Shown here in pieces: positions 1 to 8,930 of a stretch of 8,930 nucleotides of DNA. The DNA lies in the NCBI GenBank assembly GCA_017998575.1, contig JAGOCV010000161.1, forward strand, positions 1-8,930. The letters are read 5' to 3'. The notes under the pieces are model-generated. The model was not told the DNA's origin, searched no databases, and saw nothing but the letters and a program-made list of their open reading frames with translations. The first letter of the stretch is position 1; each line of letters begins with the position of its first letter. Both the position numbers and the translations under genes were made by a program. This stretch comes from Burkholderiaceae bacterium. GTDB taxonomy: Bacteria > Pseudomonadota > Gammaproteobacteria > Burkholderiales > Burkholderiaceae.

Positions 1-3000
1 CTGCTGTCGTACTGCCCGCTGTACTTCGAGCGTGACGCGGCGGGCGACTTCCGCGCGCCGGACCAGTGGCGCGCGCAGGCCCTGGCCGTGGTGGGCACGC
101 ACGACCTGCCCACGCTGGCCGGCTGGTGGCAGGGCGAGGACATCGAGCTGGCCGCGCGCCTGTCGCGCGAGCCCGATGCCGCCGCCAGCACCGCCGCCCA
201 CGGCCGCCAGGTGATCGAACGCGCCCAGGCCCGCGCGCAACTGCTGCTGGCGCTGGAGCGAGAGGGCCTGCTGCCCGAAGGCACCAGCGTGCATCCCACC
301 TCCATGCCGGGCGCCGGCCCGCGCCTGGTGGAAGCGGTGCACGCCTTCCTCGCCCGCACGCCATGCCTGCTGCTGGGCGTGCAGATCGAGGATGTCACCG
401 GACAACTGCACGCCGTCAACGTGCCCGGCACGCTGGAGAGCCAGCATCCCAACTGGCGGCGCAAGCTGGGTATCGCCATCGACGACCTGGCCGTGGACGC
501 GCGCATGCTCGGCGTGGCGCGCGTGCTGGCGGGTCGCGCGGCCGCCGCAGCGCCGGGCGAGGCCGCGCCGCTGCCGGCCGCGGGCGAGGTGCCCGACATC
601 GCGGGTGCCGAGGTGCCCGCCAGCACCTACCGCGTGCAGCTGCATGCCGGCTTCGGCTTCGATGCCGCCGCGCGCGCCGTGCCCTACCTGGCCGCGCTGG
701 GCGTGAGCCATCTCTACGTCTCGCCCTGGCAGCGCGCGCGCGCAGGCAGCACGCACGGCTACGACGTGGTGGACCACGACGCGCTCAACCCCGAACTGGG
801 CGACGAGGCCGCCTTCGAGCGGCTGTGCCAGGCGCTGGCGGCCCACGGCATGCGGCAGATGCTGGACATCGTGCCCAACCACATGGGCGTGCTCGAAGCC
901 GACAACGCCTGGTGGCTCGACGTGCTGGAGCACGGCCCGGCCTCGCTGCAGGCCGAGACCTTCGACATCGACTGGAGCCCGTCCGATCCGCAGATGCAGG
1001 GCCGCGTGCTGCTGCCCGTGCTGGGCGACCACTACGGCCGCGTGCTCGAAGCGGGAGAGCTCAAGCTGGTGTTCGAGGCCGAAGAGGGCAGCTTCCACAT
1101 CGCCTACTGGAATCACCGCTTCCCCATCGACCCGCGCGACTACCCCGCGCTGCTGGGCCGCCTGCCGCTGCCGGCCGGGCTGCCCGAAGAAGAACACGCG
1201 CGCATCGAATCGGTGCTGCACGCGCTCGCGCAACTGCCGCCGCGCAGCGACACCTCGGCCGACGCCCGCGCCACGCGCGCACGCGATGCGCGGGTGCACA
1301 AGCGCACGCTGGCGCGCCGCGTGGCCGCGCAGCCGCTGCTGGCCGTGTGGATCGATGCCGCCGTGCAGTCGTACGGCGGCACGCCGGGGGAGGCCGCCAG
1401 CTTCGACGCGCTCGACGCGCTGATCGCGCGCCAGGCCTGGCGACTGGCGTACTGGCGCGTGGCGGGCGACGAGATCAACTACCGCCGCTTCTTCGACATC
1501 AACACGCTGGCCGCGCTGCGCACCGAGCGCGAGCCGGTGTTCGAAGCTACGCACCGCCGCGTGCTGCGCTGGCTGCAGGACGGCTGCGTGCACGCGCTGC
1601 GCATCGACCACCCCGACGGCCTGGCCGATCCGCGCGGCTACTTCGCGCGGCTGCAGGCGCGCCAGGCCCAGGCCTGCGAGCGCGCCGGCCTGCCGCGCCG
1701 CGCCCTCTACCTGGTGGTCGAGAAGATCCTGGCCGACCACGAAGACCTGCCGGCCGACTGGCCCGTGCATGGCGGCACCGGCTACCGCTTCTCCAATCTG
1801 GTCAACGGCCTCTTCGTGGATGCAACGGGCGAAGGGCAGCTCACGCGCGTCTATGCCGACTTCATCGGCGAGCGGCTGGACTTCGGCGACGTGCTCTACG
1901 ACGCCAAGCGCCTCATCATGGACGTGGCGCTGGCCAGTGACCTGCAGTGGCTGGCCGAGGCGCTCCTGCGCATCAGCCGCGCCGACCGCCGCACCTGCGA
2001 CTTCACGCGCGCCGGCCTGCGGCTGGCGCTGGCCGAGGTGGCGGCGGGGTTCCCGGTGTACCGCACCTACCTCACCGGCGACGGGCAGGCCAGCGAGACC
2101 GATCGCCGCTATCTCGACCAGGCGATCGCGCGCGCGCGCCGCCGTGGCGTGGCCGGCGACGTGAGCGTGCTGCAGCACCTGCGCCACGTGCTGCTGGCGC
2201 CACCGGGCGAGGACGCGGCGCACGAGCCGGGCTACGAGGCCGCGCGCCGTGCCTTCATCGCGCGCTGGCAGCAGTTCACCGCGCCCGTGATGGCCAAGGC
2301 CATGGAAGACACGGCGTTCTACCGCTACCACCGGCTGGTGTCGCTCAACGACGTGGGCGGCGATCCGCGCACCTTCGGCACGCCGCCCAAGGCTTTCCAT
2401 GCGGTGTGCGAGTCGCAGGCGGCCGAGCGGCCGAACTGGCTGCTGGGCAGCTCCACCCACGACAGCAAGCGCTCGGAAGACGTGCGCACGCGGCTGGACG
2501 TGCTGGCCGAAATGCCCGCCGAATGGGCCGCCGCCGTGCACGAATGGCGCACGCTGGCCGACGCCTTCGCCGGCAGCGTGGCCGGGCTGCGCGCGCCCAC
2601 GCGCAACGACGAATACCTGCTCTACCAGACGCTGGTGGGCGTGTGGCCGCTGGTGCCCACCGACGAGGCCGCCCGCCAGGACCTGCGCGAACGCGTGGGC
2701 GCCTACATGCTCAAGGCCATGCGCGAGGCCAAGCAGGAAACCAGCTGGATCAACCCCGACGACGCTTACGAGGCCGCGATGGCCGGCTTCATCGACGGCC
2801 TGTTCGCCAGCCGCGAATTCGTCGCCAGCCTGGAGGCCTTCGTCGCGCGCATCGCGCCGGCGGGGCTGGCCAACAGCCTGAATCTGGTGATGCTCAAGTT
2901 CATGGCGCCCGGCGTGCCCGACGTGTACCAGGGCTGCGAGGGCTGGAACTTCAGCCTCGTCGATCCGGACAACCGGCGGCCGGTGGACTTCGAGGGCGCG

Positions 3001-3570
3001 GCCGCGCGGCTGGCCGTCGTGCGCGGCCTCTATGGCCAGCGCGATGCGTCGGCGCTGGCCACGCCGGCCGTGCCCGCGCGCGGGGACTGGGAAGTCCTGC
3101 GCGCGCGGCCCGACGACGGCCGCCTCAAGCAACTCGTCACCTGGCGGCTGCTGCAACTGCGTGCCGCGCAGCCCGGCTTCTTCGCGCGCGCGGGCTACGC
3201 GCCGATCGCCGCGCGCGGATCGCGGGCCGAGCACGTGCTGGCCTTCGCGCGCACCGCGCCGGATGACACGCAGGACGGCAGCGCGTACTCGCGCTGCGTC
3301 GTCGCCGTGGCCAGTCGCCTGCCCTGGCGCCGCCTGGGGGGCGATGCCGCCGCCGAGGCGCTCTCGGGTAGCCGGGGTTGGGACGACACGACCCTGCAAT
3401 TGCCTGCGGCGCCGGGCGGCTGGCGCGAGCTCTTCACCGGCCGCGCGATCGCGGCTGCGGATGCCGCGCACGCGGTGGGCGAGCTGCTGCACGAGCTGCC
3501 GCTGGCCGTGCTGGTGCCCACGGCGTGGTGGCCGCACGATCCCTCTCCTGCTTCCAAGGTGATTCCCTGA
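1..3570 (+). CDS. treY: MalQ-TreY fusion (4-alpha-glucanotransferase / maltooligosyltrehalose synthase), 5' partial
   Basis: The frame is open from base 1 with no start in view, so the N-terminus lies upstream. Codons 1 to about 178 are the C-terminal end of a GH77 amylomaltase. They contain the THDLPTLAGWW motif (bases 97-129), which carries the third catalytic Asp, and the closing VPGT...PNWRRKL motif. An Ala/Pro-rich linker (about 538-609) leads into a complete TreY of about 986 residues. TreY is a GH13 enzyme that isomerises the reducing-end alpha-1,4 bond of maltodextrins to alpha-1,1, giving maltooligosyltrehalose in the cytoplasm. Its hallmarks are STYRVQLH near the domain start, LDIVPNHMG, the nucleophile Asp in RIDHPDGL (1606-1608), the acid/base Glu in LVVEKIL (1720-1722) and the third Asp in SSTHDSKRSEDVR (2461-2463). 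It ends overlapping glgA, so the two are probably one operon. The fusion is read directly from the uninterrupted frame. How much of MalQ lies upstream cannot be seen. Confidence 0.95.
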   Translation: MLSYCPLYFERDAAGDFRAPDQWRAQALAVVGTHDLPTLAGWWQGEDIELAARLSREPDAAASTAAHGRQVIERAQARAQLLLALEREGLLPEGTSVHPTSMPGAGPRLVEAVHAFLARTPCLLLGVQIEDVTGQLHAVNVPGTLESQHPNWRRKLGIAIDDLAVDARMLGVARVLAGRAAAAAPGEAAPLPAAGEVPDIAGAEVPASTYRVQLHAGFGFDAAARAVPYLAALGVSHLYVSPWQRARAGSTHGYDVVDHDALNPELGDEAAFERLCQALAAHGMRQMLDIVPNHMGVLEADNAWWLDVLEHGPASLQAETFDIDWSPSDPQMQGRVLLPVLGDHYGRVLEAGELKLVFEAEEGSFHIAYWNHRFPIDPRDYPALLGRLPLPAGLPEEEHARIESVLHALAQLPPRSDTSADARATRARDARVHKRTLARRVAAQPLLAVWIDAAVQSYGGTPGEAASFDALDALIARQAWRLAYWRVAGDEINYRRFFDINTLAALRTEREPVFEATHRRVLRWLQDGCVHALRIDHPDGLADPRGYFARLQARQAQACERAGLPRRALYLVVEKILADHEDLPADWPVHGGTGYRFSNLVNGLFVDATGEGQLTRVYADFIGERLDFGDVLYDAKRLIMDVALASDLQWLAEALLRISRADRRTCDFTRAGLRLALAEVAAGFPVYRTYLTGDGQASETDRRYLDQAIARARRRGVAGDVSVLQHLRHVLLAPPGEDAAHEPGYEAARRAFIARWQQFTAPVMAKAMEDTAFYRYHRLVSLNDVGGDPRTFGTPPKAFHAVCESQAAERPNWLLGSSTHDSKRSEDVRTRLDVLAEMPAEWAAAVHEWRTLADAFAGSVAGLRAPTRNDEYLLYQTLVGVWPLVPTDEAARQDLRERVGAYMLKAMREAKQETSWINPDDAYEAAMAGFIDGLFASREFVASLEAFVARIAPAGLANSLNLVMLKFMAPGVPDVYQGCEGWNFSLVDPDNRRPVDFEGAAARLAVVRGLYGQRDASALATPAVPARGDWEVLRARPDDGRLKQLVTWRLLQLRAAQPGFFARAGYAPIAARGSRAEHVLAFARTAPDDTQDGSAYSRCVVAVASRLPWRRLGGDAAAEALSGSRGWDDTTLQLPAAPGGWRELFTGRAIAAADAAHAVGELLHELPLAVLVPTAWWPHDPSPASKVIP
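3556..3569 (+). promoter_or_regulatory. Ribosome binding site and CTG start of glgA
   Basis: AAGGTGA at 3556-3562 matches the anti-Shine-Dalgarno complement. Four bases later comes CTG (3567-3569), followed by codons for NILFATSECAP, exactly where GlgA proteins begin. The CTG shares bases with the upstream TGA stop (3568-3570), an arrangement like the common ATGA coupling. There is no ATG, GTG or TTG at the family start position. The nearest in-frame alternatives, GTG at 3525 and 3528, would add 13-14 non-conserved residues and lack this spacing. Confidence 0.65.
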
Positions 3571-5027
3571 ACATCCTCTTCGCCACTTCCGAATGCGCGC
3601 CCTGGGTCAAGACCGGCGGACTGGGCGACGTGAGCGCCGCGCTGCCGCAGGCGCTGGCCGGGCTGGGCCACGACGTGCGCGTGCTGATGCCGGCGTATGG
3701 CGCGCTGGGCACGCTCAAGTCGCAGGCACGCGAATGGACCGACTGGCCCGCCGATGGCGCCTGGCCCGCGGCGCGGCTGGGCCGCGTCGTGCGGCGCGGG
3801 CAGTTCGACCTGTGGCTGCTCGACTGCCCTGAACTCTTCGCCGACCCGGGTGGGCCTTATCAGGACACGGCCGGCCGTGACCACACGCACAACGCGCGCC
3901 GCTTCGCCTTCCTGGCGCGCGTGGCCGCGCAGCTCGCTGCCGGTGTCGTGCCGGCCATCGCCCAGGCCTGGCGGCCCGACGTCCTGCACTGCAACGACTG
4001 GCCGACCGCGCTGGCTCCCGCCTGGCTGGCGGCGCTGCGTGCCCAGGCGCGCATCCCCACGGTCGTCACCATCCACAACCTGGCCTACCAGGGCCTGTTC
4101 CCGATGGAGGTGGTGGACACGCTGGCCCTGCCGCCGTCATGGGGCACCGTGGAAGGCGCCGAGTTCTGGGGCCAGCTGTCGTACCTGAAGGCGGGCCTCG
4201 TGCATGCCGATGCCATCACCACCGTGAGCCCCACGTACGCGCGCGAGATCCGCACCGAGGCGTTCGGCTGCGGCCTCGACGGCCTGCTGCGCGCGCGCGA
4301 GGCCGACCTGTCGGGCATCCTCAACGGCATCGATGCCGCGCAATGGGATCCCGCCACCGACACCCTCATCGCCCAGCGCTACGACGCCGAAGGCTGGCGC
4401 GCCGGCAAGCTGGCCAACCGCCGCGCGCTGCGCCAGGCCATGGGCCTGCCGGGCCAGCGGCGCGGCCTGCTGTTCGGCGTGGTGAGCCGGCTGGCCAGCC
4501 AGAAGGGCATCGATCTCATCGTGGACAGCCTGCCCTGGCTCATCGCCAACGACTGCCAGCTGGCCGTGCTGGGCAGCGGCGACGCGGTGCTGCAGCAGCG
4601 CCTGCAGGCCGCCGCCGCCGCGCATTCCGCGCACGTTGCCGTGCGCATCGGCTTCGACGAGACGCTGGCGCACCTGATCGAGGCCGGCGCCGATGCCTTC
4701 CTCATGCCTTCGCGCTACGAGCCCTGCGGCCTCAACCAGATGTACAGCCAGCGCTATGGCACGCCGCCGGTGGTGCATGGCACGGGCGGGCTGGCCGATT
4801 CGGTGGACGACTTCGTGGCGGCCGGCCCCGACGCCGCCACAGGGTTCGTCATGCCCGAGGCCAGCGTGCCCGCGCTGCAGGCGGCGATGGCGCAGGCGCT
4901 GCTGGTGGCGAAGCAGCCAGCCGTGTGGGAGGCCATGTGCCGCCGCGGCATGGCGCGCGAGTTCGGCTGGGATGCGAGCGCGCGCGCGTACGTGCAGCTC
5001 TACGAGAGGCTGCGGCACCGACGCTAG
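3567..5027 (+). CDS. glgA: Glycogen synthase GlgA (ADP-glucose type)
   Basis: A GT5 enzyme that transfers glucose from ADP-glucose to the non-reducing end of alpha-1,4-glucan in the cytoplasm. At 486 residues it is of normal bacterial length. The N-terminal Rossmann half carries KTGGLGDV with Lys15 (nucleotide-sugar binding). It also carries HCNDW at 141-145, where E. coli GlgA has HAHDW; the NDW form also occurs in plant starch synthases. The C-terminal half has SRLASQKG (Arg308, Lys313) and SRYEPCGLNQ (Glu385, Cys387), followed by the GTGGLADSV loop. The start is the CTG at 3567, chosen from family alignment and the ribosome binding site. An in-frame ATG at 3378 lies deep inside treY and is rejected. 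It overlaps the MalQ-TreY frame by four bases, so expression is probably translationally coupled. GlgA makes the glucan that TreY and MalQ remodel. The family is certain; only the start is in doubt. Confidence 0.95.
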   Translation: MNILFATSECAPWVKTGGLGDVSAALPQALAGLGHDVRVLMPAYGALGTLKSQAREWTDWPADGAWPAARLGRVVRRGQFDLWLLDCPELFADPGGPYQDTAGRDHTHNARRFAFLARVAAQLAAGVVPAIAQAWRPDVLHCNDWPTALAPAWLAALRAQARIPTVVTIHNLAYQGLFPMEVVDTLALPPSWGTVEGAEFWGQLSYLKAGLVHADAITTVSPTYAREIRTEAFGCGLDGLLRAREADLSGILNGIDAAQWDPATDTLIAQRYDAEGWRAGKLANRRALRQAMGLPGQRRGLLFGVVSRLASQKGIDLIVDSLPWLIANDCQLAVLGSGDAVLQQRLQAAAAAHSAHVAVRIGFDETLAHLIEAGADAFLMPSRYEPCGLNQMYSQRYGTPPVVHGTGGLADSVDDFVAAGPDAATGFVMPEASVPALQAAMAQALLVAKQPAVWEAMCRRGMAREFGWDASARAYVQLYERLRHRR

Positions 5028-5028
5028 T

Positions 5029-5055
5029 GGCGCGGTGGCCGCGTCACCGTGCGCC
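5029..5055 (+). terminator. GC-rich hairpin after glgA, possible weak terminator
   Basis: GGCGC-GGTG (5029-5037) can pair with CACC (5045-5048) and GCGCC (5051-5055), giving nine base pairs with a two-base bulge and a seven-base loop. It starts two bases after the glgA stop, where the carbohydrate operon should end. There is no T-run after it, so it is not a canonical intrinsic terminator and may only protect the 3' end or pause transcription. Confidence 0.3.
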
Positions 5056-5060
5056 TGCCG

Positions 5061-5093
5061 GAAACGCGAATGCGTTCTCATAAAATCCGCCGG
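5061..5093 (+). promoter_or_regulatory. Candidate promoter/operator of the Fur-family gene
   Basis: TAAAAT at 5081-5086 is the only AT-rich hexamer in the 97-base gap and a fair -10 match; it would start transcription near 5093. No good -35 is visible. Just upstream, AACGC (5063-5067) and GCGTT (5072-5076) form a dyad around GAAT, a possible operator for autoregulation. It does not resemble a canonical Zur or Fur box, so the operator reading is speculative. Confidence 0.35.
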
Positions 5094-5124
5094 TCGCCTT
5101 CACGGCTCCAGCTCTTTCGTCACC

Positions 5125-5562
5125 ATGGAACGTTCCACCCGCCAACGCACCGCGATCCAGAGCGTTCTGGAGGGCGCCGGCCGGCCGCTGTCCCCGCAGG
5201 AAATCCTCGAAGCCGCGCAGGCGGACGTGCCGGCGCTGGGCATGGCGACGGTGTACCGCCAGCTCAAGGCGATGCAGGAGGAAGAGCTGCTGGTGGTGGT
5301 GGACCTGCCGGGCGAGAACGCGCGCTACGAGCTGGCGGGGCTGCACCATCACCATCACTTCCAGTGTCACGATTGCGGTCGCGCGTTCGACATTCCGGGG
5401 TGCCCCGGCAACCTGGCGAAGCTGGCGCCCGAGGGGTTCTCGGTGGACAGCCACGAGCTCACGCTCTACGGGCAGTGCGCGGATTGCGGGAAGACACCGG
5501 CGGGCCGGCGCAAGGGCGCGGTGAAGGCGGCTGGGGGCAAGGCGGTTGCGCATCGGCATTGA
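5125..5562 (+). CDS. Fur-family metal-responsive regulator, probable Zur
   Basis: The 145-residue protein has the usual length and order of the Fur family. An N-terminal winged helix has the recognition stretch MATVYRQL at about 40-47. A C-terminal metal-binding dimerisation domain has a five-His run at 74-78 followed directly by CHDC (Cys81, Cys84), then Cys93, His110 and the second pair CADC (Cys118, Cys121). The two CxxC pairs are the family's structural zinc site. The protein represses DNA targets when loaded with metal. Zinc is inferred as the effector from the adjacent zinc-type operon and from the run FDIPGCPG after the first CxxC, which differs from the iron-Fur pattern. The basic tail ends in HRH. 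The start is the ATG that gives a family-sized N-terminus; no clear Shine-Dalgarno precedes it. The family is secure. Zur rather than Fur or another subtype is an inference. Confidence 0.9.
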   Translation: MERSTRQRTAIQSVLEGAGRPLSPQEILEAAQADVPALGMATVYRQLKAMQEEELLVVVDLPGENARYELAGLHHHHHFQCHDCGRAFDIPGCPGNLAKLAPEGFSVDSHELTLYGQCADCGKTPAGRRKGAVKAAGGKAVAHRH

Positions 5563-5597
5563 TTTTTCGGCGATGCGCTGACGTTGGTGGCGCATCG
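5548..5597. other. Three alternating 8-mers forming competing hairpins
   Basis: GCGCATCG (5548-5555), CGATGCGC (5571-5578) and GCGCATCG again (5590-5597) overlap and follow the regulator's stop codon. The middle copy can pair with either neighbour, with loops of 15 or 11 bases. A run of five T (5563-5567) lies in the first loop, not after a stem, so this is not a standard terminator. The function is unknown and it may be chance. Confidence 0.3.
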
Positions 5598-5608
5598 GTC
5601 GGGATCAC

Positions 5609-5686
5609 GGGGTGGCTGCCTCCGCTCGTGTCCCCCGGATCGGCTGCGCCGATCCTCCTCCTTGACCTCGCTGCGACAGCCACCCC
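5609..5686 (+). repeat. Palindromic repeat unit, left copy
   Basis: The unit is bounded by a perfect 10-base inverted repeat, GGGGTGGCTG (5609-5618) and CAGCCACCCC (5677-5686). At its centre is a second palindrome, eight-base arms at 5637-5644 and 5648-5655 around TGC. Between these lie two conserved blocks that reappear inverted in the right copy. The layout resembles REP/BIME-type extragenic repeats. Its mobility or copy number cannot be judged from one window. Confidence 0.7.
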
Positions 5687-5776
5687 ATGCTCCCGACGGG
5701 CGCGCCATGCGACGGTTGCCGAATACCCCTGCGCATGACCAACGCTTTCGATCGCAGCGGCAGTGGTGCCTTGCAA

Positions 5777-5819
5777 AGCGAGGTCAAGGAGGAGGCCGAA
5801 GGCCGGGGGACACGAGCGG
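5777..5819 (-). repeat. Palindromic repeat unit, right copy in inverse orientation
   Basis: Bases 5777-5795 are the exact reverse complement of 5654-5672 (19 of 19), and 5803-5819 of 5622-5638 (17 of 17). The central palindrome between the blocks differs: GGCC-GAA-GGCC (5794-5804) replaces the longer stem of the left copy. The terminal 10-base inverted repeat of the left copy is not conserved here. A further 8-base match, 5669-5676 against 5752-5759, lies just inside the pair. Confidence 0.8.
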
Positions 5820-5871
5820 CGCAAGGCTCCGCTGGCGATGCGATGGGGCGCGATGGTCGTGTGTCATGAGG

Positions 5872-5902
5872 CCATGCCCCCGATGCAGCCATGGGGTCAT
5901 GG
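5872..5902. other. Hairpin upstream of the zrgA promoter
   Basis: CCATG-c-CCCC (5872-5881) pairs with GGGG-t-CATGG (5893-5902): nine base pairs with one internal mismatch and an 11-base loop. GTGTGT (5859-5864) and ACACAC (5913-5918) could extend it as an outer stem. It could insulate zrgA from upstream transcription or bind a regulator. There is no T-run. Confidence 0.3.
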
Positions 5903-5922
5903 AACGCCTGTCACACACCATC

Positions 5923-5947
5923 GGTGATAATGATTCTGTGAAATCAC
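5923..5947 (+). promoter_or_regulatory. Fur-box-like operator overlapping a -10 element and the zrgA start
   Basis: GATAATGAT at 5926-5934 equals the first nine bases of the classical Fur-box consensus, with about 11 of 19 matches over 5926-5944. GATAAT (5926-5931) is also a near-consensus -10 hexamer. A start of transcription seven bases on would fall at 5938, the first base of the GTG start codon. GTGAT (5924-5928) and ATCAC (5943-5947) form a short dyad across it. No clear -35 is visible. Metal-dependent repression by a Fur-family protein is the inference. Confidence 0.5.
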
Positions 5948-6537
5948 TAGCAAACATCCTTCCGCTGACGGCGCTGGCCATCACCGCACTCGCCGCATCC
6001 GCTGGCCAGGCCCATGACCACGGCAAGGGCGCCGCGCAGCACGCCCACACGCACGGCGTCGTGGCGCTCGACGTCGCGGTCGATGCGCAGACCATCACGC
6101 TGCAGCTGGAGGCACCGCTGGAAAGCCTGGTCGGCTTCGAGCGTGCGCCGCGCACGGCGGCCGAACGGCAGCGCGTCGATGCCGCCGTGGCGCAGCTTCG
6201 CGCGGGAGACCGGCTGTTCCGGCTCGACCCCGCCGCGCGCTGCGCGCTCAAGGACGTCGCCCTGCATTCGCCCACGATCGGACTCGGCAAGGACGGCAAG
6301 GACGACGACCACGGCAACGGCGGGAAGCACCACGACCACGGCGACGACAGCCACGCCGATCTCGAAGCCACCTACGCCTTCGCCTGCGAAGCGGCGGCGC
6401 AGGCCCGCTTCGTCGAACTGCCGCTGTTCGATGCTTTCCAGCGCATCCGCATGGTGAACGGCCAGGTGGCCGCGCCGCAGGGCCAGTTCAAGCGCACCCT
6501 GGGCCGCACCGACCGCCGCCTGGGCTGGGGCCGCTGA
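5938..6537 (+). CDS. zrgA: Periplasmic His-rich zinc-binding protein, ZrgA/DUF2796 family
   Basis: A 199-residue exported protein. From the GTG start, residues 1-25 form a classical Sec signal: Lys2, a hydrophobic core of about residues 4-20, and probable cleavage after AGQA. The mature protein begins at once with a metal-ligand cluster at 26-39 (HDHG...HAHTH). It continues with the VVALDVAVD...LQLEAPLESLVGFERAP segment typical of DUF2796. A second His/Asp cluster lies at 124-139 (DDHG...KHHDHGDDSH). Cys102 and Cys150 may form a disulfide. The Vibrio homologue, ZrgA, belongs to a zinc-regulated uptake system. The likely role here is zinc capture in the periplasm for the ABC transporter encoded two bases downstream. 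GTG at 5938 was chosen because it gives a clean signal peptide; an in-frame ATG at 5899 would add 13 residues before it. No Shine-Dalgarno precedes the GTG. Confidence 0.85.
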   Translation: MKSLANILPLTALAITALAASAGQAHDHGKGAAQHAHTHGVVALDVAVDAQTITLQLEAPLESLVGFERAPRTAAERQRVDAAVAQLRAGDRLFRLDPAARCALKDVALHSPTIGLGKDGKDDDHGNGGKHHDHGDDSHADLEATYAFACEAAAQARFVELPLFDAFQRIRMVNGQVAAPQGQFKRTLGRTDRRLGWGR

Positions 6538-6539
6538 AC

Positions 6540-7286
6540 GTGACACCGGCAGCCGTGGCGTCCGCTGCCGCGCCAGGCGCGTCCCCGGGGGCGGCGTTGC
6601 TGGAGGTTGCCGACCTGTCGTTCATCTGGCCGGGCCAGCCGAGGCCGGCTGTCGAAGTCGCCGCGTTCTCGCTGGGCGAGGGTGAAACTGTTTTTCTGCA
6701 TGGCGAGAGCGGCAGCGGCAAGAGCACGCTGCTCTCGCTGCTGGCCGGCGTGCTGCTGCCCACGCGCGGCCGCATCGCGCTGATGGGCGCCGACTGGCGC
6801 GCGCTCGGCCGCGCCGCGCGCGACCGGCACCGTGTGGATCACGTGGGCTACATCTTCCAGCAGTTCAACCTGCTGCCTTACCTGGGCGTGCTCGACAACG
6901 TGCTGCTGCCGTGCCGCTTCTCGGCGCAGCGGCGCGCGGCGGCCGAAGCCGAGGCCGGTTCGGCGCCCGAGGCTGCGCGTGCATTGCTGCGCGCCATGGG
7001 CCTCGACGAATCGCTGTGGGACCGCGCGGCCGGCCGCCTGTCGGTGGGCCAGCAGCAGCGCGTGGCCGCCGCGCGCGCGCTGATCGGTTCGCCCGCGCTG
7101 GTGATCGCCGACGAGCCCACCTCCGCGCTCGACGAAGACCGCCGCGATGCCTTCGTCGACCTGTTGCTGGCGGCCTGCGAACGGCGCGGCAGCGCCCTGG
7201 TGTTCGTGAGCCACGACCGGCGCCTGGCGCCACGCTTCTCGCGCCAGGTGGCGCTGGCCGGCCTGCGCAACGGAGCCAGTACATGA
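6540..7286 (+). CDS. ABC transporter ATP-binding protein (LolD/MacB type, Zrg-like zinc system)
   Basis: This 248-residue cytoplasmic ATPase powers the permease encoded next. All ABC motifs are present in order: Walker A GESGSGKST (55-63), Q-loop FQQFNLLPYL (106-115), signature LSVGQQQRV (167-175), Walker B LVIADEPTSALD (187-198) and the H-loop His225. The signature reads LSVGQ instead of the canonical LSGGQ. The overall pattern matches the LolD/MacB ATPases that pair with FtsX-like permeases, not ZnuC. The start is GTG, two bases after the zrgA stop. The first 19 residues are Ala-rich and not part of the fold, so a slightly later start (GTG at 6555) is possible. Its last four bases, ATGA, overlap the permease start, implying translational coupling and a fixed stoichiometry. 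The substrate is inferred from neighbours only. Confidence 0.93.
   Translation: MTPAAVASAAAPGASPGAALLEVADLSFIWPGQPRPAVEVAAFSLGEGETVFLHGESGSGKSTLLSLLAGVLLPTRGRIALMGADWRALGRAARDRHRVDHVGYIFQQFNLLPYLGVLDNVLLPCRFSAQRRAAAEAEAGSAPEAARALLRAMGLDESLWDRAAGRLSVGQQQRVAAARALIGSPALVIADEPTSALDEDRRDAFVDLLLAACERRGSALVFVSHDRRLAPRFSRQVALAGLRNGAST
7272..7285 (+). promoter_or_regulatory. Ribosome binding site and coupled start of the permease gene
   Basis: GGAG at 7272-7275 lies seven bases before ATG (7283-7285), which overlaps the ATPase stop as ATGA. This is the clearest Shine-Dalgarno in the metal operon and fixes the permease start. Confidence 0.75.
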
Positions 7287-8545
7287 CCCCGCTGTTCGGC
7301 CTGGCCTGGCGCAGCGCGTGGAACCGGCGCTTCACGCTCGCGCTCACGGTGCTCTCGATCGCGCTGTCGGCCTTCATGCTGCTGGGCGTCGAGCGCCTGC
7401 GCAACGACGTGCGCGACAACTTCACCTCGGCCGTCTCGGGCACCGATCTGGTGGTGGGCGCGCGCACGGGGCAGGTGCAGCTGCTGCTGTACTCGGTGTT
7501 CCGCGTGGGCTCGGCCACGGCCAACATGCGCTGGAGCAGCGTCGAGGCTTTGCAGTCCATGCGCCAGGTGGCGTGGGTCGTGCCGCTGTCGCTGGGCGAT
7601 TCGCACCGGGGCTTTCCGGTGCTGGGCACCACGGCGGGCTACTTCGAACATTTCCGCCATGGCGAAGGCCAGCCGCTGCGGCTGGCGCAGGGCACGCAGG
7701 CGTCGGACCTGTTCGATGCCGTGATCGGCGCCGAGGTGGCCGAGCGACTGGGCTACGCGCCCGGCGCGCGCATCACGCTCTCGCACGGCGCGGGCGAGTT
7801 CGACATGGACAGCCATGCCGACAAGCCCTTCACCGTGCGCGGCGTGCTCGCGCGCACCGGCACGCCGGTGGATCGCACCGTGCACATCAGCCTGGAGGCG
7901 ATGGAGGCGCTGCATGTCGACTGGACGGCTGGCGTGCCGCTGCCGGGCCGGCGCATCGGGCAAGACGCCGTGCGCCAGATGGATCTGCAGCCCAAAGCCG
8001 TCACCGCCGCGATGGTGGGCCTGCACAGCCGCGCGGCCGTGTTCTCGGTGCAGCGCCAGGTCAACAACTTCACGGGCGAGCCGCTGATGGCCATCCTGCC
8101 CGGCGTGGCGCTGGACGAACTCTGGACGCTGGTGGGCGCGGGCGAGCAGGCGCTGCTGCTCATGTCGGCCCTGGTGGCGCTGGTGAGCATGGCCGGCCTG
8201 GTGTCGGTGGTGCTGGCCGGCCTGGGCGAGCGGCGGCGCGAGCTGGCCGTGCTGCGCGCCGTGGGCGCGGGCCCGCGCCACGTGCTGGTGCTGCTCGCGC
8301 TCGAAGGCTTCCTCGTCACGCTGGCCGGGCTGGTGCTGGGCTGCGCGCTGCTGGCCGCCGCCACGCTGGCGGCCGGGCCATGGCTGCAATCGTCGTTCGG
8401 CCTGACGCCGGGCCTGGCCGCGCCCGATGGCGTGCAGCTCATGCTGCTGGGCGGCCTGCTGGCGGCCGGCTGGATCGCGAGCCTGCTGCCGGCCTGGCGT
8501 GCCTATCGCCTGTCGCTGGCCGATGGCCTGTCGCCGCCGGCCTGA
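7283..8545 (+). CDS. FtsX/MacB-type ABC transporter permease (Zrg-like system)
   Basis: A 420-residue inner-membrane protein with the MacB/LolE layout. One transmembrane helix at about 18-36 is followed by a large periplasmic domain of about 250 residues (MacB-PCD-like, including SGTDLVVGARTGQVQ at 52-66). Three more helices follow at about 288-312, 334-362 and 384-404. The cytoplasmic loop after helix 2 carries GERRRELAVLRAVGAGPRHV (315-334), the FtsX-family coupling motif that contacts the ATPase. Relatives (LolCE, MacB, FtsEX) do not move substrate through a membrane pore but transmit ATP-driven motion to the periplasm. A zinc-uptake role, as reported for the Vibrio Zrg system, would therefore be unusual. 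The start overlaps the ATPase stop and has a good ribosome binding site. The function is inferred from ZrgA and the DUF3299 gene on either side. Confidence 0.9.
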   Translation: MTPLFGLAWRSAWNRRFTLALTVLSIALSAFMLLGVERLRNDVRDNFTSAVSGTDLVVGARTGQVQLLLYSVFRVGSATANMRWSSVEALQSMRQVAWVVPLSLGDSHRGFPVLGTTAGYFEHFRHGEGQPLRLAQGTQASDLFDAVIGAEVAERLGYAPGARITLSHGAGEFDMDSHADKPFTVRGVLARTGTPVDRTVHISLEAMEALHVDWTAGVPLPGRRIGQDAVRQMDLQPKAVTAAMVGLHSRAAVFSVQRQVNNFTGEPLMAILPGVALDELWTLVGAGEQALLLMSALVALVSMAGLVSVVLAGLGERRRELAVLRAVGAGPRHVLVLLALEGFLVTLAGLVLGCALLAAATLAAGPWLQSSFGLTPGLAAPDGVQLMLLGGLLAAGWIASLLPAWRAYRLSLADGLSPPA

Positions 8546-8602
8546 ACGCGGCCGCCCATCCATCCGCCAGAAACTTTCATGCGGCCTGCCGCTCTGTCCA
8601 CC

Positions 8603-8930
8603 ATGACTTCCACTTCGCGTCTTCTCCCGCGCCGTCGCCTGTTGCAGGGGGCCGTCGCCCTGCTGGCCGGCGCGGCGCTGCCAGCGGCATGGGCTCAGGG
8701 CAAGTCGCGCGACATCTCGTGGGACGACCTCGTGCCGCAGGGCTGGGATCCGACGGCCTCGTTCCTCGACCTCAAGGGCGCCGAGAACCTGCCCGATACC
8801 GATCCGCGCGCGCAGAAGCTGCTCGAACGCATCCGCGAGGTGTGGGACAACGCGCCCGTGGTTCAGCAGCTCGAAGGGCGGCAGGGCCGCATCGCCGGCT
8901 ACCTGGTTCCGCCGGAACCGGGCCAGGACG
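8603..8930 (+). CDS. Exported DUF3299-family protein, 3' partial
   Basis: The frame is open to the end of the window; 109 residues are visible. It begins with an export signal of twin-arginine type: PRRRLLQ at 9-15, a hydrophobic stretch of Ala, Leu and Gly at about 16-29, and an AWA-Q cleavage site near residue 31. The mature part starts with DISWDDLVPQGWDP, the opening of DUF3299, a small periplasmic or lipoprotein family found beside ZrgA-type genes. It then has a helical segment with VVQQLEGRQGRIAGYLVP. There is no lipobox Cys, so this copy should be soluble. An in-frame ATG at 8579 is an alternative start that adds eight residues. Neither start has a clear ribosome binding site. The 57 bases after the permease stop show no promoter or terminator, so it is probably the fourth gene of the operon. 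Its biochemical role is unknown to me. Confidence 0.8.
   Translation, partial: MTSTSRLLPRRRLLQGAVALLAGAALPAAWAQGKSRDISWDDLVPQGWDPTASFLDLKGAENLPDTDPRAQKLLERIREVWDNAPVVQQLEGRQGRIAGYLVPPEPGQD

Follow-up and report, generated by a model that had tools for sequence, protein, structure and literature searches.

We analyzed an 8,930-nucleotide stretch of DNA from a Burkholderiaceae bacterium (assembly GCA_017998575.1, contig JAGOCV010000161.1, positions 1 to 8,930 of the forward strand; hereafter the window), in which a gene for a Fur-family regulator is followed by a cluster resembling the zrg genes of Vibrio. Five genes, all on the plus strand, occupy positions 5125-8930, and Pfam profiles identify them as a Fur-family regulator, zrgA, an ATP-binding cassette (ABC) ATPase, an FtsX/MacB permease and a DUF3299 gene. 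The regulator gene (5125-5562; PF01475, E-value 1.5e-21) codes for a protein of 145 residues that is best read as a Zur-type repressor, and a candidate Zur box, ACGCGAATGCGTTCTCAT, precedes it at 5064-5081. The zrgA gene (5938-6537; PF10986, E-value 8.3e-48) has a GTG start and encodes a His-rich, predicted periplasmic zinc-binding protein of 199 residues with relatives in the PDB (7ahw, 8ezw). It is followed by a zrgC-type ABC ATPase gene (6540-7286; PF00005, ABC_tran, E-value 4.7e-30) and a zrgB-type FtsX/MacB permease gene (7283-8545, 420 residues; PF02687, E-value 8.9e-17; PF12704, MacB_PCD, E-value 7e-13), which share a 4-base overlap. The last gene, of zrgE type (8603-8930, alternative start 8579; PF11736, E-values 1e-6 and 8.4e-7 in two scans), is cut by the window end, and its counterpart in the related locus L001 is longer than the window fragment. 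Gene calling placed no gene in the 375-bp gap between the regulator gene and zrgA, much of which is a dispersed palindromic repeat with approximate limits 5588-5870. An AT-rich block before and over the zrgA start (5924-5953) is a candidate operator. The box, the repeat and this block carry no strand assignment.

The closest regulator locus among the matches listed, L001, lies on a contig of a Burkholderiales metagenome-assembled genome and has a 95% identical regulator and the same run of genes. The genome of this locus, G001, is of unstated completeness, and genome-wide statements about the window's organism rest on it. A sequence-only reading had named the gene families, likened the four-gene order to that in Vibrio and suggested a betaproteobacterial origin. 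The FUR, ZrgA, ABC_tran, FtsX and DUF3299 profiles all matched above their cut-offs, including those for ZrgA and DUF3299, which had been named beforehand as the searches on which that reading could fail. The gene order is that of Vibrio parahaemolyticus zrgA-C-B-E (PMC9817125; this and the other papers cited are drawn on in part), and the closest locus agrees with the proposed origin. We consider it likely that zur and the zrgA-C-B-E cluster behind it serve a Burkholderiales bacterium in its response to zinc starvation. This explanation rests on the gene identities, the gene neighborhood, the box before zur, the candidate ligands of ZrgA and the fold class of the permease, from which we infer the zinc specificity, repression and zinc-supply function of the locus.

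The regulator and its operator

The FUR domain of the regulator scored 77.2 bits against a curated Pfam cut-off of 23.1. The two CxxC pairs and the run of five histidines noted in the sequence-only reading lie at C81/C84, C118/C121 and H74-H78. In an alignment of 16 sequences, comprising the window protein and 15 relatives, C81, C84, C93, H75-H78, H110, C118 and C121 are invariant. When a profile of the regulator was compared with solved structures, 3mwm and 2o03 (FurB, zinc uptake regulation) ranked first, 5 bits above PerR and Fur; we take 3mwm to be Zur from Streptomyces coelicolor. In a single-sequence phmmer search, the Fur entries 6d57 and 4ets tied with FurB, and the best NCBIfam match was a PerR model (E-value 1.4e-16, far under its cut-off). 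G001 holds two Fur-family genes, the counterpart of the regulator gene and another with a much stronger FUR match.

We surveyed the neighborhoods of the best 80 of 378 orthologous regulator loci, which were gathered by similarity to the regulator alone; 53 of these are well flanked, with at least 6 kb on either side. ZrgA lies within 6 kb of the regulator in 25 of the 53 well-flanked loci and in 32 of the 80 overall. Within the same distance, the well-flanked loci contain AztB/ZnuB-type permeases (23 loci), AztC/ZnuA-type binding proteins (23), CobW-family GTPases (14) and TonB receptors (13). At least one of ZrgA, AztB/ZnuB, AztC/ZnuA and CobW is found in 32 of the 53 (45/80 overall), and counting also TonB receptors, AztD-like proteins and two unnamed clusters raises these figures to 43/53 and 64/80. 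The profiles for these neighbor types were derived from the same loci in which the neighbors were then counted. Representatives exceeded the Pfam cut-offs for ZnuA, ABC-3, cobW and TonB; their best NCBIfam names were AztB, AztC, AztD, ZigA and ZrgA, every one under its equivalog cut-off.

A de novo motif search upstream of 81 regulator genes, over at most 160 bp each, yielded one clear palindrome, ATGATAATGCATTATCAT. We built an operator matrix from 79 of these regions, excluding the window and L001, and set 14 bits as the threshold for a box. Sites of this type reach the threshold in 63 of the 79 training regions. The left-out window site at 5064-5081 scored 19.9 bits and ends 43 nt upstream of the regulator gene. 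This score was not attained in any of 20000 first-order shuffles of the upstream region (97 nt), and the block around the site is conserved in L001. In G001, the core box pattern, which was written to include that site, matches exactly only before the zur counterpart; with up to one mismatch it occurs in 33 places, against 17 for the reversed pattern. The site at 5064-5081 is a candidate Zur operator that may serve autoregulation. Two overlapping boxes spaced 6 bp apart occur in L008, L019, L030, L040, L050, L070, L076, L080 and other loci, which suggests binding by two dimers.

Taken together, the zinc-type neighbors, the shared palindromic operator, the FurB-first profile ranking and the separate, stronger Fur gene in G001 make Zur the best reading of the regulator. 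The proposal of a zinc-type regulator made from the sequence alone agrees with the first three of these lines of evidence. Its description as "dedicated" does not survive the survey: the Zur orthologue adjoins several other zinc operons in relatives, and it is one of two Fur-family genes in G001.

Two further kinds of neighborhood were seen at the zur loci. In several loci, among them L002 (7087-9876) and L013 (5742-9843), another cluster of zinc type diverges from zur. It includes an AztD-like protein (L013), an AztC-like binding protein and two proteins without a Pfam match, one of 380-390 residues and one of 243-250 residues, perhaps a highly diverged permease. In L015 (4350-9991), and also in L016, L027, L036 and L041, zur is adjoined by a TonB receptor, an ABC ATPase and two membrane proteins of the same cluster, one of which was scanned and matched ABC-2/DUF3526. 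A Zur box precedes the TonB receptor in L015, L016 and L027, and the genes could represent a metallophore system.

The zrg gene products and the direction of transport

ZrgA matched PF10986 with 162.8 bits against a curated cut-off of 27.4. Its solved relatives by sequence are PA4063 (7ahw, E-value 3.7e-19) and 8ezw (listed as a zinc-binding protein, E-value 4.5e-14), the latter presumably ZrgA from Vibrio cholerae. Residues H37, H39, E68 and H139 are invariant in all ten aligned sequences. The alignment with 8ezw, read with PMC9820375, suggests that they correspond to V. cholerae His35, His37, Glu66 and His184. They would fit the one zinc site that this source calls widely conserved, and we regard them as candidate ligands.

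The best NCBIfam match of the ATPase is LolD (E-value 1.3e-44, under its cut-off). A structural model of the permease (predicted local distance difference test score, pLDDT, 78.9) consists of a helix, a periplasmic domain and three further helices (helical segments 2-50, 273-326, 331-372 and 383-413). The best 50 of 332 Foldseek matches to this model were LolC/LolE, MacB, HrtB, YbbP, FtsX and the like, with a probability of 1.00 and with template modeling (TM) scores by query length of just 0.30-0.57. The modeled permease, with four transmembrane segments of FtsX type and a large periplasmic domain, and its ATPase partner have the features of a type VII ABC system (MacB/LolCDE). Machines of the MacB/LolC type are known to carry out extrusion or mechanical work. 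The DUF3299 fragment matched the solved structure 4hsp (listed as a hypothetical protein) weakly, with an E-value of 4e-4; we take this entry to be PA4066.

We propose that zinc-loaded Zur acts on the box at 5064-5081 to repress the zur promoter. It would repress the zrg genes via read-through from the zur promoter, via a weaker operator at 5924-5953, or via both. A drop in zinc would derepress zur and zrg together. ZrgA would then bind zinc in the periplasm. The ATPase and MacB/LolC-type permease would act as a type VII ABC machine and, in cooperation with ZrgA and the DUF3299 protein, increase the supply of usable zinc.

Published work on relatives disagrees about what such machines move. 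V. cholerae ZrgA is needed under zinc limitation and supports zinc-limited growth (PMC9820375, in part), and the portion of PMC11481552 drawn on here reports that PA4063-PA4066 of Pseudomonas aeruginosa export pyochelin-cobalt and that permease-gene mutants accumulate pyochelin and cobalt. The transport direction is disputed in print among these relatives, and zinc import by the window locus is putative. The term "uptake locus" in the sequence-only reading is unproven, given the MacB/LolC-type permease and the P. aeruginosa relative reported as an exporter.

An exporter is the strongest of the competing explanations, although we consider it unlikely. The zrg unit would not take up zinc in this case; it would expel a metallophore or a metal-metallophore complex useful under zinc starvation, as reported for PA4063-PA4066. 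The MacB_PCD and FtsX domains of the permease, its fold matches to LolC/E, MacB and HrtB and the pyochelin and cobalt build-up in the Pseudomonas mutants all favor export. The growth phenotype of V. cholerae ZrgA argues for supply instead, and no MacA-like gene lies between the genes of the window (none was searched for elsewhere). We also surveyed 200 genomes of the family, in which contig ends may conceal some gene neighbors. ZrgA exceeded its cut-off in 34 of them, each of which also has DUF3299. A nonribosomal peptide synthetase condensation domain was not found in 19 of these 34 genomes, G001 among them, so a pyochelin-type substrate of the cell's own making would not be general.

On a somewhat less probable reading, ZrgC-B-E does not transport zinc across the inner membrane. 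It could instead do mechanical work in the manner of MacB/LolC, releasing or moving envelope zinc and loading ZrgA, which in turn feeds a separate Azt ABC or ZIP importer. If true, this reading would bring the zinc acquisition seen in Vibrio into line with the exporter-type fold. It fits the loci in which the gene for ZrgA accompanies an Azt-type importer at a distance from the FtsX unit, or stands in a single run with a ZIP gene (G070, G175). The co-occurrence of importers is not itself evidence for it, since ZIP genes are present in 163 of the 200 family genomes anyway. An ABC-3 (Znu/Azt-type) permease is absent from the window and was not detected in G001, which had suggested Zrg as the sole zinc importer of that genome. 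We rejected this idea because G001 carries two ZIP genes and importers are widespread in the family in any case; ABC-3 permeases exceed the cut-off in 118 of the 200 genomes, many of them weakly. With the zrg cluster beside zur and no ABC-3 permease detected, G001 offers a clean setting for distinguishing uptake, export and a periplasmic role.

Control of zrgA and the extent of the pairing

We return to the reading of the locus as a Zur-controlled zinc-starvation unit and to the region directly before zrgA. The block at 5924-5953 is identical in L001 and contains three weak Zur-type sites in a 6-bp register (5.3, 7.5 and 10.9 bits). Their joint score was reached by 4 of 20000 shuffles, a statistic picked after the sites were seen. 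These sites weakly suggest direct Zur control of zrgA in the window. Read-through from zur into zrg is possible, as a simple scan of 5000-6000 for promoters and terminators found none.

The pairing of zur and zrgA takes several forms in relatives. The two genes overlap by 4 bp in L018, and the distance from the zur stop to the ZrgA match is 30-53 bp in L018, L051 and L060. In L032, zur and zrgA diverge from a region of at most ~190 bp that contains a 19.3-bit box, and they likewise diverge from a boxed region in L046. G070 and G175 have the order ZIP-zrgA-DUF3299-zur on one strand, with a box just upstream of the ZIP gene by positions that we worked out. In 14 of the 34 ZrgA-bearing genomes, zrgA has a Fur-family gene no more than 6 kb away; in 9 of those 14, DUF3299 also lies within 5 kb of zrgA. 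Adjacency of zur and zrgA is common and is not the rule. The distinctiveness that the sequence-only reading implied for this pairing was not borne out by the neighborhood survey it had suggested, with ZrgA near 32 of the 80 regulator loci.

Zur-linked ZrgA without an FtsX match within 6 kb was found at 24 loci, in two of which (L032, L042) the contig ends close behind zrgA, so that a linked permease may lie beyond its end. A permease scoring at least 570 bits is encoded in 21 of the 24 genomes. The other three (G203, G213 and G220), whose completeness is unstated, have either no such permease or a much weaker match. The possibility that ZrgA works without an FtsX permease is a weak lead. Genomes without a permease beside the zur-linked zrgA have 23 permease loci away from zur, of which 20 were retrieved. 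Seven of the 20 carry their own ZrgA gene, and 18 are informative, as L140 and L141 have less than 120 bp of upstream DNA. A single site of 14.2 bits was found, in L142 and ~630 bp from zrgA; the expectation from shuffles is 0.2 sites at 14 bits for each set. When 50 zrg upstream regions, partly zur-linked (L083-L112 and L136-L155), were searched de novo, only low-information GC-rich patterns emerged.

A number of observations weigh against a Zur-controlled zinc-supply role. At the regulator, 10 of the 53 well-flanked loci have none of the eight neighbor types, and 16 of the 79 training regions lack a 14-bit box. In the window, the matrix scan gave no canonical Zur box immediately upstream of zrgA, and its best site there, at 10.9 bits, is reached in 969 of 20000 shuffles. 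Across the family, zrgA lacks a Fur-family neighbor inside 6 kb in 20 of the 34 ZrgA-bearing genomes, and 11 of the 34 encode a single Fur-family gene (G061, G067, G072, G082, G083, G119, G124, G143, G161, G185 and G199). The permease loci away from zur lack a site of at least 12 bits in 19 of 20 cases, which speaks against Zur control of zrg everywhere. As for function, ZrgA scored 105.2 bits against an NCBIfam equivalog cut-off of 185 (zinc uptake protein ZrgA, NF047873), and no importer description appears among the best 50 of 332 Foldseek matches of the permease. The exporter in Pseudomonas had no relevant effect on cell zinc, according to the part of PMC11481552 drawn on.

Some of these observations would also suit control of zrgA by iron through Fur, with the neighboring Zur regulating only itself, an arrangement that we think improbable. 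The Fur box consensus has a 7-1-7 arrangement. The sequence TGATAATGATTCTGT before zrgA, which belongs to the conserved block at 5924-5953 and is identical in L001, resembles it, fitting 11 of 14 arm positions of the consensus; the missing Zur boxes before zrgA and before the permease units away from zur point the same way. The right arm of TGATAATGATTCTGT matches at just 4 of 7 positions, and relatives have zur and zrgA either joined or served by a common boxed promoter region. Zur governs the known zrg operons, as stated in the parts of PMC9817125 and PMC11481552 drawn on. That the regulator itself is a PerR- or Fur-type sensor of peroxide or iron is very improbable: the PerR model is its best NCBIfam match and 6d57 and 4ets equal FurB by phmmer, but the profile search puts zinc regulators first, G001 has a separate and much stronger FUR match, and zinc-type neighbors occur in 32 of 53 loci.

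The repeat between zur and zrgA is a palindromic element of ~250 bp with nested inverted repeats and an RNA fold z-score of -5.2; it has no Rfam match. Copies or pieces occur at 9 places in G001 (E-value 8e-6 or better), counting the counterpart of the window copy, and shorter pieces occur in G021, G183 and G070, with none in G059. A stretch of more than 100 bp is identical between the window and L001, with diverged flanks. The repeat is probably not part of the zinc system. An Rfam search of the window gave no match above gathering scores. Positions 1-3570 hold the 3' part of a 4-alpha-glucanotransferase/malto-oligosyltrehalose synthase fusion followed by glgA, with no evident link to zinc. 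In L001, glgA and zur flank a gene for 181 residues (9367-9912, a membrane protein by eye) that the window lacks.

Comparison with known systems

Zrg systems have been published before, as has their control by Zur both in Vibrio and in Pseudomonas. A ZrgA group from betaproteobacteria is likewise in print, with a genome-neighborhood survey (PMC7731109, in part). In titles and abstract openings of the part of the literature covered, we found no mention of zur-zrg linkage in Burkholderiales.

The ZrgA, ATPase, permease and DUF3299 genes of the window stand in the same order as in the Vibrio zrgABCDE cluster. In V. parahaemolyticus, zrgD, A, C, B and E are neighbors in a table of PMC9817125 (VP_RS01455-VP_RS01475), and the part of this paper drawn on describes zrg as subject to Zur repression and as induced when zinc is limiting. 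Vibrio differs in having an extra zrgD before zrgA, whereas the window has zur beside the cluster. PA4063-PA4066 of P. aeruginosa share a ZrgA homologue (PA4063, 7ahw), a split ATPase and MacB-type permease and a DUF3299 homologue with the window. They differ in their reported role as a pyochelin-cobalt exporter (PMC11481552, in part); a nonribosomal peptide synthetase condensation domain was not found in G001.

The zur-azt-zrgA loci of other Burkholderiales (for example L005, L013, L015) have an orthologous regulator and ZrgA within 3.5 kb; in L005 and L013, zur is also preceded by a Zur box. In contrast to the window, these loci have genes for an AztB/AztC-type importer separating zur from zrgA, and no FtsX unit within 6 kb. 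This split arrangement, with zur-azt-zrgA apart from ATPase-FtsX-DUF3299, bears on the printed statement that zrg genes invariably associate. Together with the operator motif, it eases mapping of the zinc-starvation regulon in Burkholderiales. The regulator shares its Fur domain, CxxC pairs and His-rich stretch with Mycobacterium tuberculosis FurB (2o03) and 3mwm; unlike these, it has an invariant Cys93, and its segment before His110 is 3-4 residues shorter. The Zur assignment is sound. We conclude that the locus is probably an ordinary, well-placed member of a known system.

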